Translations under genes and position numbers: made by a program
Virus record (IMG/VR): IMGVR_UViG_3300030099_004560
Span: 1-31,617 of that record
Length of the DNA: 31,617 nt
Strand: one strand, 5' to 3'
Origin: a virus
Notes under the pieces: model-generated
Databases searched by the model: none
Told to the model about the DNA's origin: nothing
What the model saw: the letters and a program-made list of their open reading frames with translations, nothing else
Part shown: piece by piece, positions 8,770 to 26,483 of the stretch
Layout of the letters: each line of letters begins with the position of its first letter
How positions within the stretch are numbered: position 1 is the stretch's first letter

Positions 8770-8967
8770 GTGGACTCATTACACCTAGTTCAATTTATAC
8801 AAAAGGTTATAAAGGAACGTCGCACACAAGTCTTAGAATTGTTGGAAAACAATAGCGTAAAGTCGATGGAGCAGTACCAAAACCTTATGGGGGAGCTATC
8901 GGCTTTGAATCATGTAGCACAGGAACTCTCGGGCCTGCTAGAAAAACAGGAGCAACTAAATGACTGA
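8770..8967 (+). CDS. Small helical protein of unknown function
   Basis: 65 residues from a GTG start with GGAG (8761-8764) five bases upstream; the ATG at 8768 is in another frame and stops at once. The whole protein appears alpha-helical (LVQFIQKVIKERRTQVLELL, LSALNHVAQELSGLLEKQEQ), forming a probable two-helix hairpin. It overlaps the co-chaperonin gene by 8 bases. I do not recognise a family; its position at the head of the capsid assembly block suggests an assembly role. Confidence 0.75.
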   Translation: MDSLHLVQFIQKVIKERRTQVLELLENNSVKSMEQYQNLMGELSALNHVAQELSGLLEKQEQLND

Positions 8968-9406
8968 TCTAGCTGAAGAAATTGACCTAGACGCCGCCGC
9001 AGAAGGCGTCAAATCCCTTTACAAAGCTCCACAGCCCAAGGTACTTGACCCCGAGGCCATGGACAAAAGTCTTTTGGAGCGTATGCCACAGCCCACCGGC
9101 TGGCGCATGTTAATCCTCCCATACCGCGGTAAAGAAACCACGGAAGGCGGTATTTATATTCCCAATCAAGTCTTGAACGACACTCAGCTTCAGACTGTCG
9201 TGGGATATGTCGTTAAGCAAGGCCCCCTTTGCTACAAAGACGCTGAAAAGTTCCCTGACGGCCCATGGTGCACCGAAAAACAGTGGGTAATCTTTGCTCG
9301 TTATGCTGGTTCTCGGTTCCGTATTGACGGCGGGGAGTGCAGGATTTTGAATGATGACGAAATCTTAGCGACTATTGACGATCCAGAAGACATTCTTAGT
9401 TTGTAA
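8960..9406 (+). CDS. GroES-like co-chaperonin (Cpn10)
   Basis: 148 residues. The Cpn10 fold starts near residue 43 (PTGWRMLILPYRG). The mobile loop follows (KETTEGGIYIP, 58-68), where GroES has the GGIVL motif that contacts GroEL. Later motifs VVGYVVKQGP, VIFARYAGSRFRIDG and ECRILNDDEILATI (to 139) match the family's C-terminal strands. An N-terminal extension of about 40 residues is not present in bacterial GroES. Phage co-chaperonins such as T4 gp31 replace host GroES so that GroEL can fold a capsid protein that does not fit the normal cage. The position just before scaffold and capsid supports this role. No GroEL gene is in the window. Confidence 0.88.
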   Translation: MTDLAEEIDLDAAAEGVKSLYKAPQPKVLDPEAMDKSLLERMPQPTGWRMLILPYRGKETTEGGIYIPNQVLNDTQLQTVVGYVVKQGPLCYKDAEKFPDGPWCTEKQWVIFARYAGSRFRIDGGECRILNDDEILATIDDPEDILSL

Positions 9407-18222: not shown

Positions 18223-19248
18223 ATGGCCTTGGTCGTTGCTGATCGCGTAAAAGAAACCACCACATCGACAGGTACAGGCGCGATTACGCTCGGGGGTGCA
18301 GAATCCAACTTCCGCACCTTTTCGTCTGTCCTGTCGGATGCGGACACCACTTACTACGCCATCATTGATGACAACAACGTCGCTTTTGAGGTTGGTCTAG
18401 GCACTTATGCAAGTAGCGGTAACACGATAACCCGCACCACGGTTCTTGCCAGTTCCAATAGCAACAATGCCGTGAACTTTAGTGCGGGAACCAAAGATGT
18501 GTTCCTGACCTATCCTGCGGATAAGTCTGTAAACAGAGACGCCTCGGGTAATGTCTCGGTTAGCGGCGGTGTAACGGCAACATCTTTTACTGGCCCTGTC
18601 ACAGCTACTCAGGTAGACCTGACCGGACAGGGTGATCTTCGTTTACAAGATAGTTCTGGCGGCGAGTACGTGGCTTTGCAGGCGGCTTCGACGCTAGGCT
18701 CTAGCTACACGTTAACTTTGCCTACAAGCGATGGTAGTGCAGATCAAGTTCTTCAAACAGATGGGTCAGGAGTTTTAAGCTGGGTTACTCATGGCATTAC
18801 TCATTTAGATACTTGGCGAATAACGTCAAACATTACATCCGATGCAGTTCCAATTACTACTTGGTCAAATAGTGCAGCATATCCAAATTTGCAGCCTACT
18901 TTGGGTACGGCAATGTCTCTTAGCAGCGGACTTTTTACTTTTCCCGTTACAGGATATTGGGAAGTACAGTTTTTTGGACAATATTATAATACTGGAAGCG
19001 ATAATATGGGCATTGGTATACAAGCGTACGAAGCCGATGGAACTCTTAGGAGCGTGTCCGTCGCCGCTGTAGGAGAAACTGCTTCATATTATAATCAGAT
19101 AAATCTTACCTCTTATTTAAATATTACAAATGTTTCTACTCAAAAAGTACGATTTTTTGCAAATAGTATAGTAAGTGGAAGACTTGAAGGCGCCACAGAT
19201 CGAGATAAAACATATGTTGTATTCAAGCGCATTGCAGGCTCGGTTTAA
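18223..19248 (+). CDS. Tail fibre with C1q/TNF-like C-terminal domain
   Basis: 341 residues. The N-terminal domain (1-105: ALVVADRVKETTTSTGTGAI, FEVGLGTYASSGNTITRTT, VFLTYPADK) is a phage virion attachment domain. A fibre-shaft region follows (about 110-190, ending LQTDGSGVLSW). The last 150 residues (from about 194: WRITSNITSD..., GLFTFPVTGYWEVQFFGQYY, DKTYVVFKRIAGSV) have the strand pattern of C1q/TNF-like jelly-roll tips that bind receptors. Bases from about 18790 to 19248 are clearly richer in A and T than the N-terminal half, as expected of an acquired tip domain. The neighbour at 19331 is a paralogue lacking this domain. Confidence 0.8.
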   Translation: MALVVADRVKETTTSTGTGAITLGGAESNFRTFSSVLSDADTTYYAIIDDNNVAFEVGLGTYASSGNTITRTTVLASSNSNNAVNFSAGTKDVFLTYPADKSVNRDASGNVSVSGGVTATSFTGPVTATQVDLTGQGDLRLQDSSGGEYVALQAASTLGSSYTLTLPTSDGSADQVLQTDGSGVLSWVTHGITHLDTWRITSNITSDAVPITTWSNSAAYPNLQPTLGTAMSLSSGLFTFPVTGYWEVQFFGQYYNTGSDNMGIGIQAYEADGTLRSVSVAAVGETASYYNQINLTSYLNITNVSTQKVRFFANSIVSGRLEGATDRDKTYVVFKRIAGSV

Positions 19249-19330
19249 AAAAGACTAGGAGATAGCCAATAGTTGAAAGTTCTACTTCTTGGGAGCTGGT
19301 GGATTAAATCAAGGCTAATTGGAGAAAACA

Positions 19331-19993
19331 ATGGCACTTGTCATTAAAGACAGAGTAAAAGAGACAACAACGACCACCGGCACGGGAAACATTGCCTTGG
19401 GCGGCGCGGTCAACAACTTTGTCACGTTTTCTTCTGTTCTGTCAAACAGTGATACAACTTACTACGCGATTGTAGACAGCAATAACTCTGACTTTGAGGT
19501 GGGGCTGGGAACATACGCCAGTAGCGGCAACACAATCGCTAGAACCACCGTGCTTGCAAGCTCTAACAGCGGTTCTGCTGTTGATTTGTCAGCAGGAAGC
19601 AAGGTTATTTTTTGCGCCTTCCCAGCCGACAAAGCGGTGGTTGAAGACGCCAACGGTGTAGTGTCAATAGAAAATTTGCAGTTTGACACTAACGCGATCA
19701 AGTCTACAAACACCAACGGCAACATACAGCTATTTCCGTCAGGGACAGGCTTTACAGAGCTTTACGGCAATACCAATGCTGGTGCTATCCGGTTTAATTG
19801 CGAGTCAAACAGCCACGGTGTAACCCTTAAAGGGCCACCCCACAGTGCCTCTGCCACTTACAGCCTAGAGCTTCCAAATGCAGATGGAACAAGCGGTCAG
19901 GCGTTACTGACAGATGGCTCTGGCAAACTGTCATTTGGAGCCGCAGGGATTAACACAGGCAAAGCCATTGCGATGGCTATTGTATTTGGATAG
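19331..19993 (+). CDS. Tail fibre paralogue without the C-terminal tip domain
   Basis: 220 residues from ATG 19331, with GGAG at 19321-19324. The first 105 residues closely match the N-terminus of the previous gene (DRVKETTTTTGTGNIALGG; FEVGLGTYASSGNTIARTTVLASSNS; FPADK). A shaft part follows (NTNGNIQLFPSGTGFTELYG, YSLELPNADGTSGQALLTDGSGKLSFG), but instead of a C1q-like domain it ends after 15 residues in IAMAIVFG. It arose by duplication of the gene upstream, or lost its tip. It could serve as a spacer or hetero-oligomer partner of the longer fibre. Confidence 0.78.
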   Translation: MALVIKDRVKETTTTTGTGNIALGGAVNNFVTFSSVLSNSDTTYYAIVDSNNSDFEVGLGTYASSGNTIARTTVLASSNSGSAVDLSAGSKVIFCAFPADKAVVEDANGVVSIENLQFDTNAIKSTNTNGNIQLFPSGTGFTELYGNTNAGAIRFNCESNSHGVTLKGPPHSASATYSLELPNADGTSGQALLTDGSGKLSFGAAGINTGKAIAMAIVFG

Positions 19994-20003
19994 GAGCTAA
20001 GAG

Positions 20004-20378
20004 ATGGCGGCACCAAACATTGTCAATGTCAGTACAATTACAGGCAAATCGTTTTACCTTGCGCTAGCCAACACAAGCGCAACTGCGCTGGTCAGCAACG
20101 CTGCATCAAGTGGTAAAGTTTTCAAGATCAACATGATTCAGGTTGCCAATGTCGATGGGTCTGTAGCCTGTGATGTGACCGTTAAGTATCACACACAAGA
20201 TGATATTGGTGGCACGGGATATGCCTTGGTGTCTACCGTATCCGTTCCACAGGATTCGGCACTGGTTGTTTTAGACAAAAACACAGCCATGTATCTTGAA
20301 GAAGACCGATCCATCTCTGTCACAGCAGGGACGGCAAATGATCTTGAGGTTCTTGTTAGCTACGAAGAAATTAGCTAG
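20004..20378 (+). CDS. Small beta-rich virion protein, unknown
   Basis: 124 residues, with TAGGAG upstream of ATG. The sequence alternates strands and turns (FYLALANTSATALVSNA, KVFKINMIQVANVDGSVACDV, TVKYHTQDDIGGTGYALVST, SALVVLDKNTAMYLEEDRSISV, LEVLVSYEEIS). This arrangement is familiar from many marine phages, where the protein is located among tail fibre genes; it may form a small jelly-roll or Ig-like domain. No enzymatic features. It lies between the fibre pair and the three propeller-like genes. Confidence 0.78.
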   Translation: MAAPNIVNVSTITGKSFYLALANTSATALVSNAASSGKVFKINMIQVANVDGSVACDVTVKYHTQDDIGGTGYALVSTVSVPQDSALVVLDKNTAMYLEEDRSISVTAGTANDLEVLVSYEEIS

Positions 20379-20387
20379 GTCTGAGCC

Positions 20388-21818
20388 ATGAAGTTCTTGG
20401 GCAAAGACCCCAACATCATTGATGCCTATTACACCGCTACGGCTGAAGGCGCGATTACGGCTGGAAAACCTGTCATTGTTGAGGCAGATGGTGATGTAGC
20501 TCAAGTAGCGTTAGGTGGTTCAGAACTAGGTTCTGCCGCCGTTGTTGATAGCAATAATGTCTCTCAAACTCTAATAGCCTATGACTCAAGTGCGGGCAAG
20601 GTGGTTATTGCGTACAGAGACAATACAAACGCAAATAAAGGACAAGCCCGAGTAGGCACTGTTTCTGGAAGTTCAATTACTTTTGGTACAGAGGTTGCTT
20701 TTGCTGACGCGCAAACTACCCCTCTGGGCATTTCGTATGATGCGAATGCAGAAAAGGTGGTTATCATTTTTTATGACGATGACAACTCAAACTATGGCAC
20801 GGCTGTTGTCGGCACGATAAGCGGTACGGATATTAGTTTTGGCACAGAGGTTGTTTATAACTCTGCCAACTCATACGGCGGAGGCATAGCTTACGACATC
20901 AACGCTCAAAAACATTTGATTGCTTACAGAGATAGTGATAATCGCGGCAAGGCCCGCGTGGGCACGGTGTCGGGGACGAGTATTTCTTTTGGAACTGAGG
21001 CGCAGTTTGAGTCAAGTACTTTCTATTACGGCGAAGTAACCTACGACGAAACCGCACAAAAAAGTATTATTTTCTGGAATAGAGGGTTTGGTAGCGGTCA
21101 GGCAGTTGTCGCTACGATTAGCGGCACTGATGTCACTTATGGAAGCATTGCAGAGTTCTCGTCTAGCGCGTTAGGTTCTGAAGGCCCAGAGGGGGCTTAT
21201 GATGCAACATCACAAAAAGTAGTTGTTGCTTATGCAGACAACGGTAATTCTGGTTATGGCACTGCTAAAGTCTGCACTATTAGCGGAACAAGTGTAAGTT
21301 TTGGGAGCGCCCAAGTTTACAACTCTACCGCAGAGGCTATGACGGGTCTTGGGGCTGGTGGAGGAAAGCTCGTTGTGGCGTATTCAATCAACTCAACAAG
21401 CAAAGGAAAACTCAACGTAGGAACAGTGTCTGGGACATCCATATCGTGGGATTCCGCTGTAGAGTTTGAGGACGCACAAGTTGAAAATACTGCTGTTGCA
21501 TACGATTCCACAGCAGGCCGATTTGTCATTGCTTATCGAGATCAGGGAAATTCTAGCGCCGGTACATCAATAGTTTTTGCGGCTGTTACCGTAAACCTCA
21601 CCTCAGAAAACTACATAGGCATCGCCGCCGATACTTACTCTGACAATGAAGACTCAACGATTGGCATAGTCGGCTGCATAGATCGTAATCAAACCAGCCT
21701 GACAGCAGGCCAGCAATATTTTGTTCAGACTGACGGCACACTTAGCACCACAGCAGGATCGCCGTCTGTTCTGGCTGGCACTGCCATATCCGCTACTGAA
21801 CTGGTGGTGAAAGAATGA
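20388..21818 (+). CDS. Seven-repeat beta-propeller-like tail protein, paralogue 1
   Basis: 476 residues. After an N-terminal piece (AEGAITAGKPVIVEADGDVA, about 20-39), seven repeats of about 45-50 residues follow, each built on KVVIAYRD-x-NSxYGTAxVGTxSGTxISFG and a following strand. I count seven: KVVIAYRDN, KVVIIFYDD, KHLIAYRDS, KSIIFWNRG, KVVVAYADN, KLVVAYSIN and RFVIAYRDQ. The tail (about 398-476) has NLTSENYIGIA and LTAGQQYFVQTDGTLSTTA. Seven short four-strand-like repeats imply a seven-bladed propeller. A surface, possibly glycan-binding, role is inferred. It is the most divergent of three tandem paralogues. Confidence 0.78.
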   Translation: MKFLGKDPNIIDAYYTATAEGAITAGKPVIVEADGDVAQVALGGSELGSAAVVDSNNVSQTLIAYDSSAGKVVIAYRDNTNANKGQARVGTVSGSSITFGTEVAFADAQTTPLGISYDANAEKVVIIFYDDDNSNYGTAVVGTISGTDISFGTEVVYNSANSYGGGIAYDINAQKHLIAYRDSDNRGKARVGTVSGTSISFGTEAQFESSTFYYGEVTYDETAQKSIIFWNRGFGSGQAVVATISGTDVTYGSIAEFSSSALGSEGPEGAYDATSQKVVVAYADNGNSGYGTAKVCTISGTSVSFGSAQVYNSTAEAMTGLGAGGGKLVVAYSINSTSKGKLNVGTVSGTSISWDSAVEFEDAQVENTAVAYDSTAGRFVIAYRDQGNSSAGTSIVFAAVTVNLTSENYIGIAADTYSDNEDSTIGIVGCIDRNQTSLTAGQQYFVQTDGTLSTTAGSPSVLAGTAISATELVVKE

Positions 21819-23251
21819 AGGTCATAGGTGACAGTTTGCCAAGAAGGTTCAAGGCCAAGGCCAGCGGTTCGATTACTGCGGGTAAGCCTGTAATCGTTGA
21901 AGCTGACGGTGATGTAGCTCAAGTCGCTACATCGGCGGCGGCAGTTGGCACACCTGCCGTTTTTGAAAATTCTGAACTCGCTGATCCCTTTGTTGTTTAC
22001 GACTCTAACGCTCAAAAGGTCGTGATAGCTTATAGAGACAGGGGAAATTCTGATTACGGGACCGCAATTGTTGGCACTGTCAGCGATACATCCATTAGTT
22101 TTGGTAGTTCCGCAGTATTTGAAAGCGCGACTTCCACTTATATGTATGCCGCCTATGATGCCAATGCTCAAAAAGTGGTTATCGTCTATAGCGACGGCGG
22201 AAATTCTCAGTACGGCACAGCAGTTGTTGGAACAGTAAGCGGGACTTCGATTAGCTTTGGAACAGCGGTAGTTTTTGAAAGTGCGTTTATTGACTTTCCT
22301 TCAGTGGCCTACGATTCCAATGCTCAAAAAGTGGTCATAGCTTTTCGTGACGTTGGAAATTCCAACTACGGAACCGCCATAGTGGGAACAGTTAGTGGTA
22401 CGTCGATTAGTTTTGGTAGTGCCGCAGTATTTGAAAGCGCAAATACTAATGACGTTGAAGCCGTTTACGATGCTAGCGCCCAAAAAGTGGTCATTTTGTA
22501 CAGAGATAATGGCAACTCTGACTATGGAACCGGCATCGTAGGGACAGTGAGTGGGACATCTATCAGTTTTGGCAGTGCGGCTGTATTTGAAAGCGCGAAG
22601 AGTGAGTATATGTCTGCCGTTTATGATTCTAACGCTCAAAAAATTGTAGTAGCTTACAGAGACGGTGGAAACTCTAACTACGGGACCGCTGTTGTTGGGA
22701 CGGTAAGCGGGACTTCAATCACTTTTGGCAGTGCAACTGTATTTGAAAGTGCAGACATTCCCTTTCTCTCAGCCGTTTACGACTCTAAAAACCAAAAAGT
22801 GTTTATAGCCTATGAAGACACAGGAAATTCTAGCTATGGCACTTTCGTTTCTGGAACAGTCAGTGGAAATTCTATTAGTTTTGAATCACCAGCGGTATTT
22901 GACAGCACGGACTCTGACAAAATCGCGGCCGCTTATGATGCTAACGCCGAAAGGGTTGTCATCGCTTATAGAGACGGTGGAAATTCTGAGTACGGAACCG
23001 CTGTTGTAGTTCGCCCCGCTAGCACAAATCTCACCTCAGAAAATTTTATTGGTATTGCAGAGTACGCGGCGTCTGACACGGAAACAGCCACCGTGCTAAT
23101 CAAGGGCGGCGTCAGCACCACACAGTCCAGCCTGACGGCAGGTCAGACATACTTTGTGCAAGGTGATGGCACGATAGCAACGTCAGCGGATAGCCCTAGC
23201 GTTACTGCTGGCACGGCTGTTACATCCACCAAACTGATAGTGAAGGGCTGA
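21815..23251 (+). CDS. Seven-repeat beta-propeller-like tail protein, paralogue 2
   Basis: 478 residues, starting with an ATGA overlap with paralogue 1. Seven highly regular repeats, each with AQKVVIAYRDxGNSxYGTA and VGTVSGTSISFGSA-x-VFESA. The first begins near residue 60 and the last ends near residue 395. N-terminal piece SITAGKPVIVEADGDVAQVA; C-terminal NLTSENFIGIAEYAASDTET and SSLTAGQTYFVQGDGTIATS. The near-identical repeats suggest recent internal duplication or ongoing gene conversion. Predicted fold: seven-bladed propeller. It is coupled to the upstream paralogue, so all three are probably made together. Confidence 0.8.
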   Translation: MKVIGDSLPRRFKAKASGSITAGKPVIVEADGDVAQVATSAAAVGTPAVFENSELADPFVVYDSNAQKVVIAYRDRGNSDYGTAIVGTVSDTSISFGSSAVFESATSTYMYAAYDANAQKVVIVYSDGGNSQYGTAVVGTVSGTSISFGTAVVFESAFIDFPSVAYDSNAQKVVIAFRDVGNSNYGTAIVGTVSGTSISFGSAAVFESANTNDVEAVYDASAQKVVILYRDNGNSDYGTGIVGTVSGTSISFGSAAVFESAKSEYMSAVYDSNAQKIVVAYRDGGNSNYGTAVVGTVSGTSITFGSATVFESADIPFLSAVYDSKNQKVFIAYEDTGNSSYGTFVSGTVSGNSISFESPAVFDSTDSDKIAAAYDANAERVVIAYRDGGNSEYGTAVVVRPASTNLTSENFIGIAEYAASDTETATVLIKGGVSTTQSSLTAGQTYFVQGDGTIATSADSPSVTAGTAVTSTKLIVKG

Positions 23252-23252
23252 T

Positions 23253-24710
23253 ATGAGCTATATAGGCAGACAGCTTAATGTGCCAGCCAGCACGGTTGAG
23301 TTGACGGCGGAGGGTGCGATCACTGCTGGAAAACCTGTAGTTGTTGAGGCTGACGGTGACGTAGCTCAAATCGTCCAAACGAGCGTTACCCAAGGTGTTG
23401 GCTCCCCTGTAGTCTTTACTAGCACTGCCGCATACTCCAATGAACACGCGAGCGTGTTTGATAGCAATAACAACAAAGTTGTTTTTTGTTATAGCGATTA
23501 CGGCAACAGTGGTTACGGCACTGCTGTTGTAGGAACTGTGAGTGGAACAACGATCTCTTTTGGTACTCCAGTAGTTTTTGAAAGCGCACAGACGGGTACA
23601 GAAGTTTCAGCCGCTTTTGACTCTAGCAATAACAAGGTAGTAATTGCATATCGAGACGGCGGCAACTCAACCTATGGCACGGCTATTGTCGGCACGGTTT
23701 CGGGCGATAGTATCAGCTTTGGCGCAGCCGCAGTTTTTGAAAGCGCAATTACCTCGAAGATCGGTATTTGTTTTGATAGCTCCAATAACAAGGCGGTGAT
23801 TGTCTACACAGATCAAGGTAATTCAAATTACGGCACGGCTGTTGTGGCCACAGTCAGTGGGACATCAATCAGCTTTGGAACTCCTGTAGTCTATAGGTCT
23901 GCTAGGGCTGAAGACAATGTGGCAACATTTGATACTACTAACAACAAAGTTGTCGTCGCTTATGAATATAGAACAACCGGAGCAGGCGAGGCTGTTGTCG
24001 GGACCGTTATCGGTACAAGCATCTCGTTTGGTTCTACAGCAACTTTTGAGTCCGGCGACATTAAAGAATATCTAGCAATTACTTTTGACAGTAACACTGG
24101 TAAGGTTTTTATTAGTTATCAAGAAGGTAACAATCACCGTGGAATTGTTGGCACGGTTTCTGGTACAAGCATTTCATTCGGCTCTGCGGCAGACATCCAA
24201 AGTGGTGAGTCGTTATATGCGTCCTGTACTTTTGACAGCAGTGCAAATAAGGTGGTGGTCGCCTATGAAGATGGCGGTAACTCAAATTACGGCACTGCTG
24301 TACCAATAACGATAAGTGGCACAGGATTCAGCGTTGGCACGGCCACAGTTTTTGAAAGTGCAAACATTTCCTTTATTAGCTGCTGTTTTGATAGCAAGGC
24401 AAGCAAGGTTGCAATCCAGTATTCAGATACGGGTAACTCAAATTACGGCACTGGTGTGATTTTTCAAAACACGGACGCAATCACAAACCTTACCTCAGAA
24501 AACTTTATTGGCTTTGCAGAAAACGACTGCACCGATAACGGCTTGGCGACCATTCAGTTAGGCGGTTCAGTTAACGACAAACAGACCAGCCTGACGGCAG
24601 GGCAAACGTATTTTGTACAGACTGATGGCACAATAGGCACAAGTGCCGACTCGCCATCTGTGACAGCAGGCACAGCAGTTTCATCCACCGAAATTTTAGT
24701 AAAGGGCTAA
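23253..24710 (+). CDS. Seven-repeat beta-propeller-like tail protein, paralogue 3
   Basis: 485 residues, one base after paralogue 2. N-terminal AEGAITAGKPVVVEADGDVAQ, then seven repeats (KVVFCYSDY, KVVIAYRDG, KAVIVYTDQ, KVVVAYEYR, KVFISYQEG, KVVVAYEDG, KVAIQYSDT), then NLTSENFIGFAENDCTD and TSLTAGQTYFVQTDGTIGTS to the end. The repeats use FDSSNNKV where paralogue 2 uses YDSNAQKV, so each copy has its own dialect while keeping the fold. The conserved ends and variable faces fit a family of virion surface proteins that diversify their contact sites. Confidence 0.8.
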   Translation: MSYIGRQLNVPASTVELTAEGAITAGKPVVVEADGDVAQIVQTSVTQGVGSPVVFTSTAAYSNEHASVFDSNNNKVVFCYSDYGNSGYGTAVVGTVSGTTISFGTPVVFESAQTGTEVSAAFDSSNNKVVIAYRDGGNSTYGTAIVGTVSGDSISFGAAAVFESAITSKIGICFDSSNNKAVIVYTDQGNSNYGTAVVATVSGTSISFGTPVVYRSARAEDNVATFDTTNNKVVVAYEYRTTGAGEAVVGTVIGTSISFGSTATFESGDIKEYLAITFDSNTGKVFISYQEGNNHRGIVGTVSGTSISFGSAADIQSGESLYASCTFDSSANKVVVAYEDGGNSNYGTAVPITISGTGFSVGTATVFESANISFISCCFDSKASKVAIQYSDTGNSNYGTGVIFQNTDAITNLTSENFIGFAENDCTDNGLATIQLGGSVNDKQTSLTAGQTYFVQTDGTIGTSADSPSVTAGTAVSSTEILVKG

Positions 24711-24713
24711 AAC

Positions 24714-24980
24714 ATGAAAACCATTACCGAAAACGCAACCAAATTGTCGAAGTATCTTTTTGAGGACAGCAAGGCTGTGGCTATGGGTTCTGACAAGATT
24801 ACGGTTGGCGACCCGTCTTCACCGGACTTTTACGTTGCTGATCTAAACTCCAGCAATGCCACGCTGACTGAGAGTGTGACGGACGCGCCTAGCAACTGGT
24901 CAGGCAATCGGTACACCTACGACCCTAGTGCTGATCCAAAATGGGTAGCAAACCCAGATTGGGTCGATCCCAGTGCGTAA
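24714..24980 (+). CDS. Small acidic protein after the propeller genes
   Basis: 88 residues, 3 bases after paralogue 3. Recognisable pieces are ATKLSKYLFEDSKAVAMGSDKITVGD, then FYVADLNSSNATLTESVTDAP and an aromatic end YDPSADPKWVANPDWVDP. Proteins of this shape follow tail-fibre genes in marine phages, and their position suggests a fibre-associated chaperone or tip piece, but this is a guess. No enzymatic motif is visible. Confidence 0.7.
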   Translation: MKTITENATKLSKYLFEDSKAVAMGSDKITVGDPSSPDFYVADLNSSNATLTESVTDAPSNWSGNRYTYDPSADPKWVANPDWVDPSA

Positions 24981-25697: not shown

Positions 25698-26483
25698 ATG
25701 TTTGGTTTAACCGGATTTTCAGCCACACCGTTTAGCACCCCTTCTGCGTTTGGTCCGGTGGGTGTCACGGGTGTTGCGGCTACAAGCGGTGTCGGTAGCG
25801 TATCCATAAATGGTGACGCCGATGCAGTTATCACCGGCCTTCAGGCTACCGCTTCTGGCGGCGTTTTAGTTTTTAACGAGTCTGTATCTGTATCTGTAAC
25901 AGGTTTAAACGGAACAGGTTCTGTAGGGTCTGTCGCTGCTGTTGAAGGTAAAACAGTAAACGTGACCGGGGTAGCGGCCTCCATGCCGATGACATCGTTG
26001 GAGGCGGGAGGCTCCCTGCTAGGTGGCTTGGCACTATCTGAAGAGCCGTTTGCCACGCTGTCTGATGACAGCCTTCAGATTAGCTTTGAGCAAGGCGTTG
26101 GGGCGTCTGTCACCGGCCTTGCCGCTACATCTGCGGTGGGCTCTGTTACGGTTACCGGTCTTGCCAATGTATCCTTAACCGGTATAGCAGGCACGGGTGG
26201 CGTTGGTTCTGTCACCGTAGATGCCGCAGGGCAAGTAGAAGTTACGGGAATAGCGGCCACGGGTGGTGTTGGCGCCGTCACTGTTACGCAGGGCACCGGC
26301 GTAAATGTGGCCCTCACGGGATCTTTTGCCGTGGGCCGGGTTGGAGTAGCCAGTGCAATAGGGGAAATACAAATTCAGGTCACGGGCGTGGCGGCGACAG
26401 GGGAAGTGGGTCAGGTTACCCCGTTTGCTTGGAACCCCATAGTTCCGGATCAGACTGCCAATTGGGTAGAAATAGCGGCGTAG
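25698..26483 (+). CDS. Repeat protein with 22-residue VTGxxATGxVGSVTV units
   Basis: 261 residues. It begins MFGLTGFSATPFSTP and then consists of about nine repeats of around 22 residues, with consensus VTGVAATGGVGSVTVxGxAxVx. Repeat 4 is interrupted by a unique insert (about 95-135: SMPMTSLEAGGSLLGGLALS, EEPFATLSDDSLQISFEQG). It ends with FAWNPIVPDQTANWVEIAA. Periodic beta-strand units with Gly turns point to a beta-solenoid or fibrous Ig-like stack in the tail. The GVGSVTV element also appears at the C-terminus of two other virion proteins here (16482-16841 and 29352-29651), so it may be a docking unit. Confidence 0.78.
   Translation: MFGLTGFSATPFSTPSAFGPVGVTGVAATSGVGSVSINGDADAVITGLQATASGGVLVFNESVSVSVTGLNGTGSVGSVAAVEGKTVNVTGVAASMPMTSLEAGGSLLGGLALSEEPFATLSDDSLQISFEQGVGASVTGLAATSAVGSVTVTGLANVSLTGIAGTGGVGSVTVDAAGQVEVTGIAATGGVGAVTVTQGTGVNVALTGSFAVGRVGVASAIGEIQIQVTGVAATGEVGQVTPFAWNPIVPDQTANWVEIAA

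Follow-up and report, generated by a model that had tools for sequence, protein, structure and literature searches.

That phages exchange recognition domains as modules is already known in general terms, and several described systems resemble parts of the locus considered here. Phages HTVC023P and 023Pt_psg01 hold, in the syntenic place of our array and after homologues of the MALV-type gene that precedes it, tandem proteins of 443-491 residues, four in the former and three in the latter (L082 21242-26938; L083 22472-26679). Three of these proteins were scanned, and in each tail-fibre-like regions are followed by a Gly_rich_2 domain (PF21722; E 1e-15 to 1e-20). They are like the array proteins in place, length and tandem number, and their N-terminal regions appear to be shared in order between both phages; both the distal fold and the N-terminal regions are, however, unrelated to those of the array. 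The Gly-rich proteins are possibly a parallel socket system carrying another head. Polyglycine adhesins of tail-fibre tips, such as gp38 of S16 and PP01, are a functional analogue.

Full-length homologues of the array proteins occur in Lentibacter phage ICBM2 (gp49) and in Marine virus AG-345-O18 (26% identity), in each case as a single copy behind an N-terminal extension rather than as a position-locked triplet. In ICBM2 a second protein, gp51, lies two genes from gp49 and belongs to a different class of repeats. Among solved structures, the PLL/PHL lectins of Photorhabdus are seven-bladed propellers built from near-equivalent blades of ~50 residues, and in the sugar sites of the PLL family a tryptophan stacks on the sugar (PMC6943638). 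In the nozzle of SU10, a virion protein, the chain likewise passes from a platform domain into a seven-bladed propeller and back again (PMC9509320). The nozzle is, however, a structural component of the tail channel and not an exchangeable head. The arrangement of anchors and propellers that we describe below was not found in the open-licence papers searched.

The array genes and their propellers

The window, by which we mean the whole 31.6-kb virus record analyzed, contains three consecutive open reading frames on the + strand: gene A (20388-21818, 476 residues), gene B (21815-23251, 478 residues) and gene C (23253-24710, 485 residues). The stop of A overlaps the start of B, B and C are almost contiguous, and together they take up ~14% of the window. 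A motif scan and a blade HMM identified seven repeats of ~52 residues in each protein, the motif being placed at residues 71, 123, 175, 225, 277, 327 and 378 in A, at 68, 120, 172, 224, 276, 328 and 380 in B, and at 75, 128, 180, 232, 284, 333 and 385 in C; one repeat per protein (A 327, B 224, C 385) departs from the strict regular expression. An earlier note on this DNA had described three successive paralogues of these lengths with seven repeats each, occupying about 14% of the window, and both the reading frames and the repeat scan agree with it. It had further assigned each copy its own linker style, which is true of B (YDSNAQK) and C (FDSSNNK), the linkers of A being mixed, and had correctly singled out the middle gene as the most uniform, mean blade-blade identity being 0.61 in B against 0.49 in C and 0.40 in A.

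The count of seven is not a chance result. Of the distinct complete proteins in related IMG/VR contigs, 86 have seven blades by the blade HMM and 17 have 14, other counts being mostly 5, 6, 12 or 13 in diverged or near-threshold proteins. A larger sample, which took in contigs fetched by anchor rather than by propeller, comprised 127 proteins with seven blades and 18 with 14, small numbers near threshold, and a few with none, two of them strictly classed. Closed rings are the simplest explanation for counts that step by seven. A protein of 2,353 residues with ~28 blades, approximately four sets of seven, lies in a contig (L234 2448-9506) binned as a euryarchaeal metagenome-assembled genome (MAG); it is probably viral or misbinned.

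An AlphaFold2 model of the gene B product, made with a 70-row alignment of relatives, is essentially all-beta, with a pLDDT of 95.2 and a pTM of 0.90, and supersedes a single-sequence model of pLDDT 63. In Foldseek searches the best full-length PDB folds for this model were the PLL/PHL lectins (TM by target 0.75-0.78, ~12% identity), with sialidases ranking below them (TM by target ~0.55-0.59), while matches in BFVD were phage proteins, including one of 474 residues (48% identity), one of 865 residues (51%) and ICBM2 gp49. The likeness to the lectins does not extend to sequence: neither phmmer nor profile searches with the 70-row alignment found a PDB relative of the propeller, PLL/PHL proteins included, and the repeat consensus has no conserved tryptophan of the kind borne by the PLL-family sugar sites between blades (PMC6943638). 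The anchor profile gave a weak match of 20-36 residues to PLL2/PLL3 (E 0.006-0.008). The earlier note had proposed closed seven-bladed propellers, with structure prediction as the check, and the model obtained for gene B is such a propeller. From this model, the Foldseek matches and the 7/14 blade counts, the prediction that all three genes encode closed seven-bladed beta-propellers, and that these form an array, is solid.

Two sets of database matches were set aside. PF18050 (Cyclophil_like2) exceeds its cut-off in gene A, as it does in several relatives, and is not among the matches of B or C; within the repeats the match covers only ~32-39 residues, and it was rejected as a repeat-driven false match, albeit one that would mislead automatic annotation. 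PHROGs matches of the array genes were short fragments with no named function.

Split anchors and propeller cassettes

Each propeller interrupts a small anchor, splitting it into ~44 residues ahead of the propeller and 73 behind it. In gene A the two halves of a class-A anchor (residues 1-44, 20388-20519; residues 404-476 and stop, 21597-21818) flank the cassette of seven blades (residues 45-403, 20520-21596). In gene B a class-B anchor (residues 1-44, 21815-21946; residues 406-478 and stop, 23030-23251) flanks residues 45-405 (21947-23029), and in gene C a class-C anchor (residues 1-48, 23253-23396; residues 413-485 and stop, 24489-24710) flanks residues 49-412 (23397-24488), all on the + strand. 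The N-terminal halves are class-specific and conserved between contigs, the middle of gene A being not so conserved, and bear the signatures MKFLGKD.. (A), MK.IGD.LPRRF.. (B) and MSYIGRQ.. (C); the C-terminal halves are identified from an anchor HMM and tree. The cassettes were recognized from their repeats in A and C and from the AlphaFold2 model and Foldseek in B, as well as from relatives on anchors of other classes. Invariant alignment columns fall mostly in the anchors, and the segments flanking the junctions, ITAGKPVIVEADGDVAQV and NLTSENYIGI, are similar in every class.

The order of the anchors is fixed. All 13 distinct arrays showing the three classes have them in the order A-B-C (in two of these arrays one gene runs off the contig edge), and a second lineage has the order D-E-F in 20 arrays. 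What the anchors hold varies. Four natural anchors are without a propeller (L149, L157, L166 and L181, the last of class C), and the 14-blade proteins consist of two propellers within one anchor. In L032 and L049 an unrelated repeat region (DGTKMY..YQYS) lies between the first propeller and the anchor end. Repeats of this kind, DGTKMY..YQYSLST, follow the propeller at L032 3871-6135 and L049 3892-6132 and form a protein of their own in ICBM2 (L080 3276-4487), two genes from its propeller gene.

Exchange of propellers between anchors

Anchors and propellers have different histories. Anchor identity is 85% within a class and 59% between classes; the propeller median is 41% for both. Trees were built from 52 proteins of three classes, for the most part sampled by way of the anchors. 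The anchor tree groups each class into a single clade and requires 2 class changes, the minimum possible, against a shuffled mean of 24.8 and with none of 1000 shuffles as low, whereas the propeller tree requires 21, against a shuffled mean of 24.9 and with 51 of 1000 as low. An earlier set of 46 proteins, sampled through propellers, gave 5 class changes on the anchor tree and 27 on the propeller tree.

All three propellers of the window recur on anchors of a different class in other contigs: that of A as a copy with 97% amino acid identity on a class-C anchor (L173), that of B as a 90% identical copy on a class-A anchor (L009), and that of C as 77-78% identical relatives on class-A anchors (L099, L100 and L107). 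At the nucleotide level, window A and the L173 gene are 58-78% identical over the first 120 nt, 85-100% over the propeller and 58-75% at the end; the profile of window C against the same L173 gene is the reverse. Both breakpoints lie at the anchor/propeller borders in the nucleotide profiles of window A with L173-C, window B with L009-A and L111-A with L120-B, and L044 and L045 are a further pair with breakpoints at the junctions. In several close pairs, moreover, synonymous divergence is higher in the anchors than in the propellers, which is a signature of exchange. Exchange of whole propellers, as cassettes between sockets, is well supported by comparison of sequences. The three genes are indeed paralogues, as the earlier note had called them, but position-specific anchors and independently exchanged propellers are not the product of simple triplication.

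Variation within the propellers

Overall selection on the array genes is purifying: whole-gene dN/dS was ~0.14-0.34 in 18 of 19 close pairs, the exception being a near-identical, uninformative pair, and no positive selection on whole genes was found across the 19. Positive selection on the faces of the repeats had been suggested as a check; the whole-gene ratios do not indicate it, yet the loops of one face do change faster. The D-A and B-C loops have pN/pS values of 0.53 and 0.46, compared with 0.12-0.24 in the strands and 0.24 and 0.26 in the other two loops, so that loops of one face, assigned from standard propeller topology rather than measured coordinates, are approximately three times more variable than strands. 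Entropy along the repeat peaks at the same loops.

The uniformity of the B blades had been taken to suggest gene conversion. Every B blade is, however, nearest to the same-numbered blade of the L009 propeller (85-96% amino acid identity) and not to its neighbours in B. Because the blades keep this positional identity, recent conversion among them is not supported, and we rejected it.

Genome context

The window encodes a portal of the podovirus-type family phrog_1216 and an SU10-type adaptor (PF24175), and its terminase is ~60% identical to those of 023Pt_psg01 and pelagiphage HTVC027P. These terminase relatives would point to a SAR11 host, which we did not accept because the GC content of the window is 0.49, against 0.35-0.37 in records of the pelagiphage group. 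Among cellular genomes there were matches in only three MAG contigs, which gave no clue to the host.

The module containing the array opens on the + strand with a fibre-like gene (19319-19993, likely ATG at 19331; phrog_31104) that encodes a 'MALVIKDRVKETTTTTG' domain and is homologous to 13109 of 023Pt_psg01, whose annotation reads 'tail fiber domain containing protein'. It is followed, on the same strand, by a small gene of 124 residues (20004-20378), which has homologues of 120 residues at the equivalent position in G007 and G011 (36-37% identity), and, beyond the array, by a gene of 88 residues (24714-24980) with homologues of 52-56% identity. In the D-E-F lineage the homologue of the 88-residue gene separates the first propeller gene from the second. 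The fibre-like gene and the gene adjacent to it (18223-19248) have a common N-terminal domain, MALV..DRVKETTT, and differing C-terminal parts.

Pfam and PHROGs scans of the array genes in the window yielded no recognised tail-attachment domain. A link to the tail comes from relatives. In L027 an anchor with its propeller makes up the C-terminal end of a protein whose N-terminal domain is that of T7 tail fibres (PF03906, E 4.5e-18), and in G004/L022, whose terminase is 58-59% identical to that of the window, one propeller is joined to the fibre-like MALV domain. We prefer a tail adhesin on account of these two proteins and of the Gly-rich proteins in the syntenic place; both the adhesin function and the tail location are read from sequence and should be taken as putative. 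A siphovirus-like context in G011 was left out as evidence since this contig may be chimeric. G011 (L091-L093) carries two portal families, a lambda-J-like protein and two propeller arrays, and is either a chimera or an unusual mosaic.

Alternative explanations

Other readings of the array must be weighed against an exchangeable tail adhesin. The array proteins might instead decorate the capsid, with cement-type anchors at (quasi-)threefold sites and propellers displayed on the head to bind glycans or particles without forming the primary receptor-binding tip. The joined anchors match PF09956 Phage_cement_2 (E 4e-4 for A, 8e-4 for C), PF22758 Phage_cement and PF23982 (XM1 gp53), and also PHROGs families of head decoration, scaffolding and virion structural proteins; most cement-type decorations are trimeric, and among decoration proteins several attach to cells or carbohydrates (PMC7602432). 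This likeness, which spans the joined anchor and includes E217 gp24 and Pam3 gp6, could indicate the capsid rather than the tail. All the cement matches nevertheless fall under the curated Pfam cut-off (for PF09956, 21.1 and 20.2 bits against 24), a natural empty anchor reaches only 16.2 bits (E 0.014), and the array anchors, unlike cement proteins, mostly carry one or two whole propellers between their halves. The module sits after fibre-like and SU10-adaptor-side genes and not after a capsid gene, it can end a T7-type tail fibre, and relatives have in its place Gly-rich proteins with tail-fibre-like N-terminal regions; a place on the capsid is therefore rather unlikely. It is far less probable that the propellers are enzymes, that is, sialidase- or depolymerase-like tailspikes cutting glycans of the host surface. 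Depolymerases are common among phage spikes and sialidases do appear among the Foldseek matches, but with TM scores below those of the lectins; the seven blades are near-equivalent, the invariant columns reveal no single conserved catalytic site, and the positions freest to change are the top-face loops.

The mosaic structure itself might have a trivial origin. Anchor sequence is common across classes, the contigs are metagenomic and G011 is suspect, all of which could favor mis-assembly at the junctions. The cross-class propellers are, however, mostly diverged (77-97%) and not identical copies, so mixing of reads within one sample offers no explanation; they occur in contigs from many separate IMG datasets, and the window array is identical across the 13.4 kb compared in contigs of other dataset accessions that match it at 100%. 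Mis-assembly is accordingly very improbable. Plain triplication, with neutral drift and gene conversion between repeats afterwards and no exchange system at all, could account for the common fold of the paralogues and for L019, where three similar propellers (75-77% protein identity) share a single contig. Given that anchor and propeller histories are strongly discordant, that a paralogue usually resembles its neighbours in the contig less than it does proteins from other contigs, and that blades retain positional identity, we attach almost no weight to it.

A model for the array

Genes A-C are, on balance, best explained as three adhesins of a podovirus-like marine phage, composed of fixed sockets with exchangeable propeller heads. 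Conserved, position-specific anchors would probably hold each protein at a site of its own on the virion, the propellers serving as exchangeable recognition heads that may bind a cell-surface glycan or other receptor. A conserved attachment part and a variable distal part, here anchors 85% identical within a class and propellers 41% identical, are as found in phage receptor-binding proteins. Whole propellers would recombine between sockets and between phages, with ITAGKPVIVEADGDVAQV and NLTSENYIGI probably acting as homology arms, and exchange would probably change which cell surface the virus grips; between exchanges, loops on one propeller face would drift fastest while the framework would be purified. 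The three sockets could then generate combinatorial specificity. The diversifying array envisaged by the earlier note is supported, and receptor binding is its best reading.

A bolder proposition, which we advance only tentatively, is a virus-borne cassette system in which three fixed, non-equivalent virion sockets draw propellers from a shared, cross-lineage pool for combinatorial receptor binding. Were this so, one, two or three specificities could be changed by homologous exchange at conserved anchor junctions, a socket could stack two propellers or stay empty, and receptor binding would become combinatorial with neither a specialised recombinase nor a diversity-generating retroelement. Scans of the window proteins brought no reverse transcriptase to notice. 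The model predicts that after propeller exchange between anchors specificity will follow the propeller and assembly the anchor.

Most genes for host recognition in uncultured marine phages are labelled 'hypothetical', and one family of them now has a fold, a described architecture and a mode of diversifying, in which a whole toroidal domain can serve as the unit of exchange. A practical rule for annotation suggests itself: anchor profiles detect the array whatever propeller is present, even none. Elsewhere in the window, positions 25698-26483 encode a protein of short VTGVAATGGVGSVTV-type repeats, and positions 8960-9406 a GroES-like phage co-chaperonin (phrog_3188) common to the HTVC023P group.
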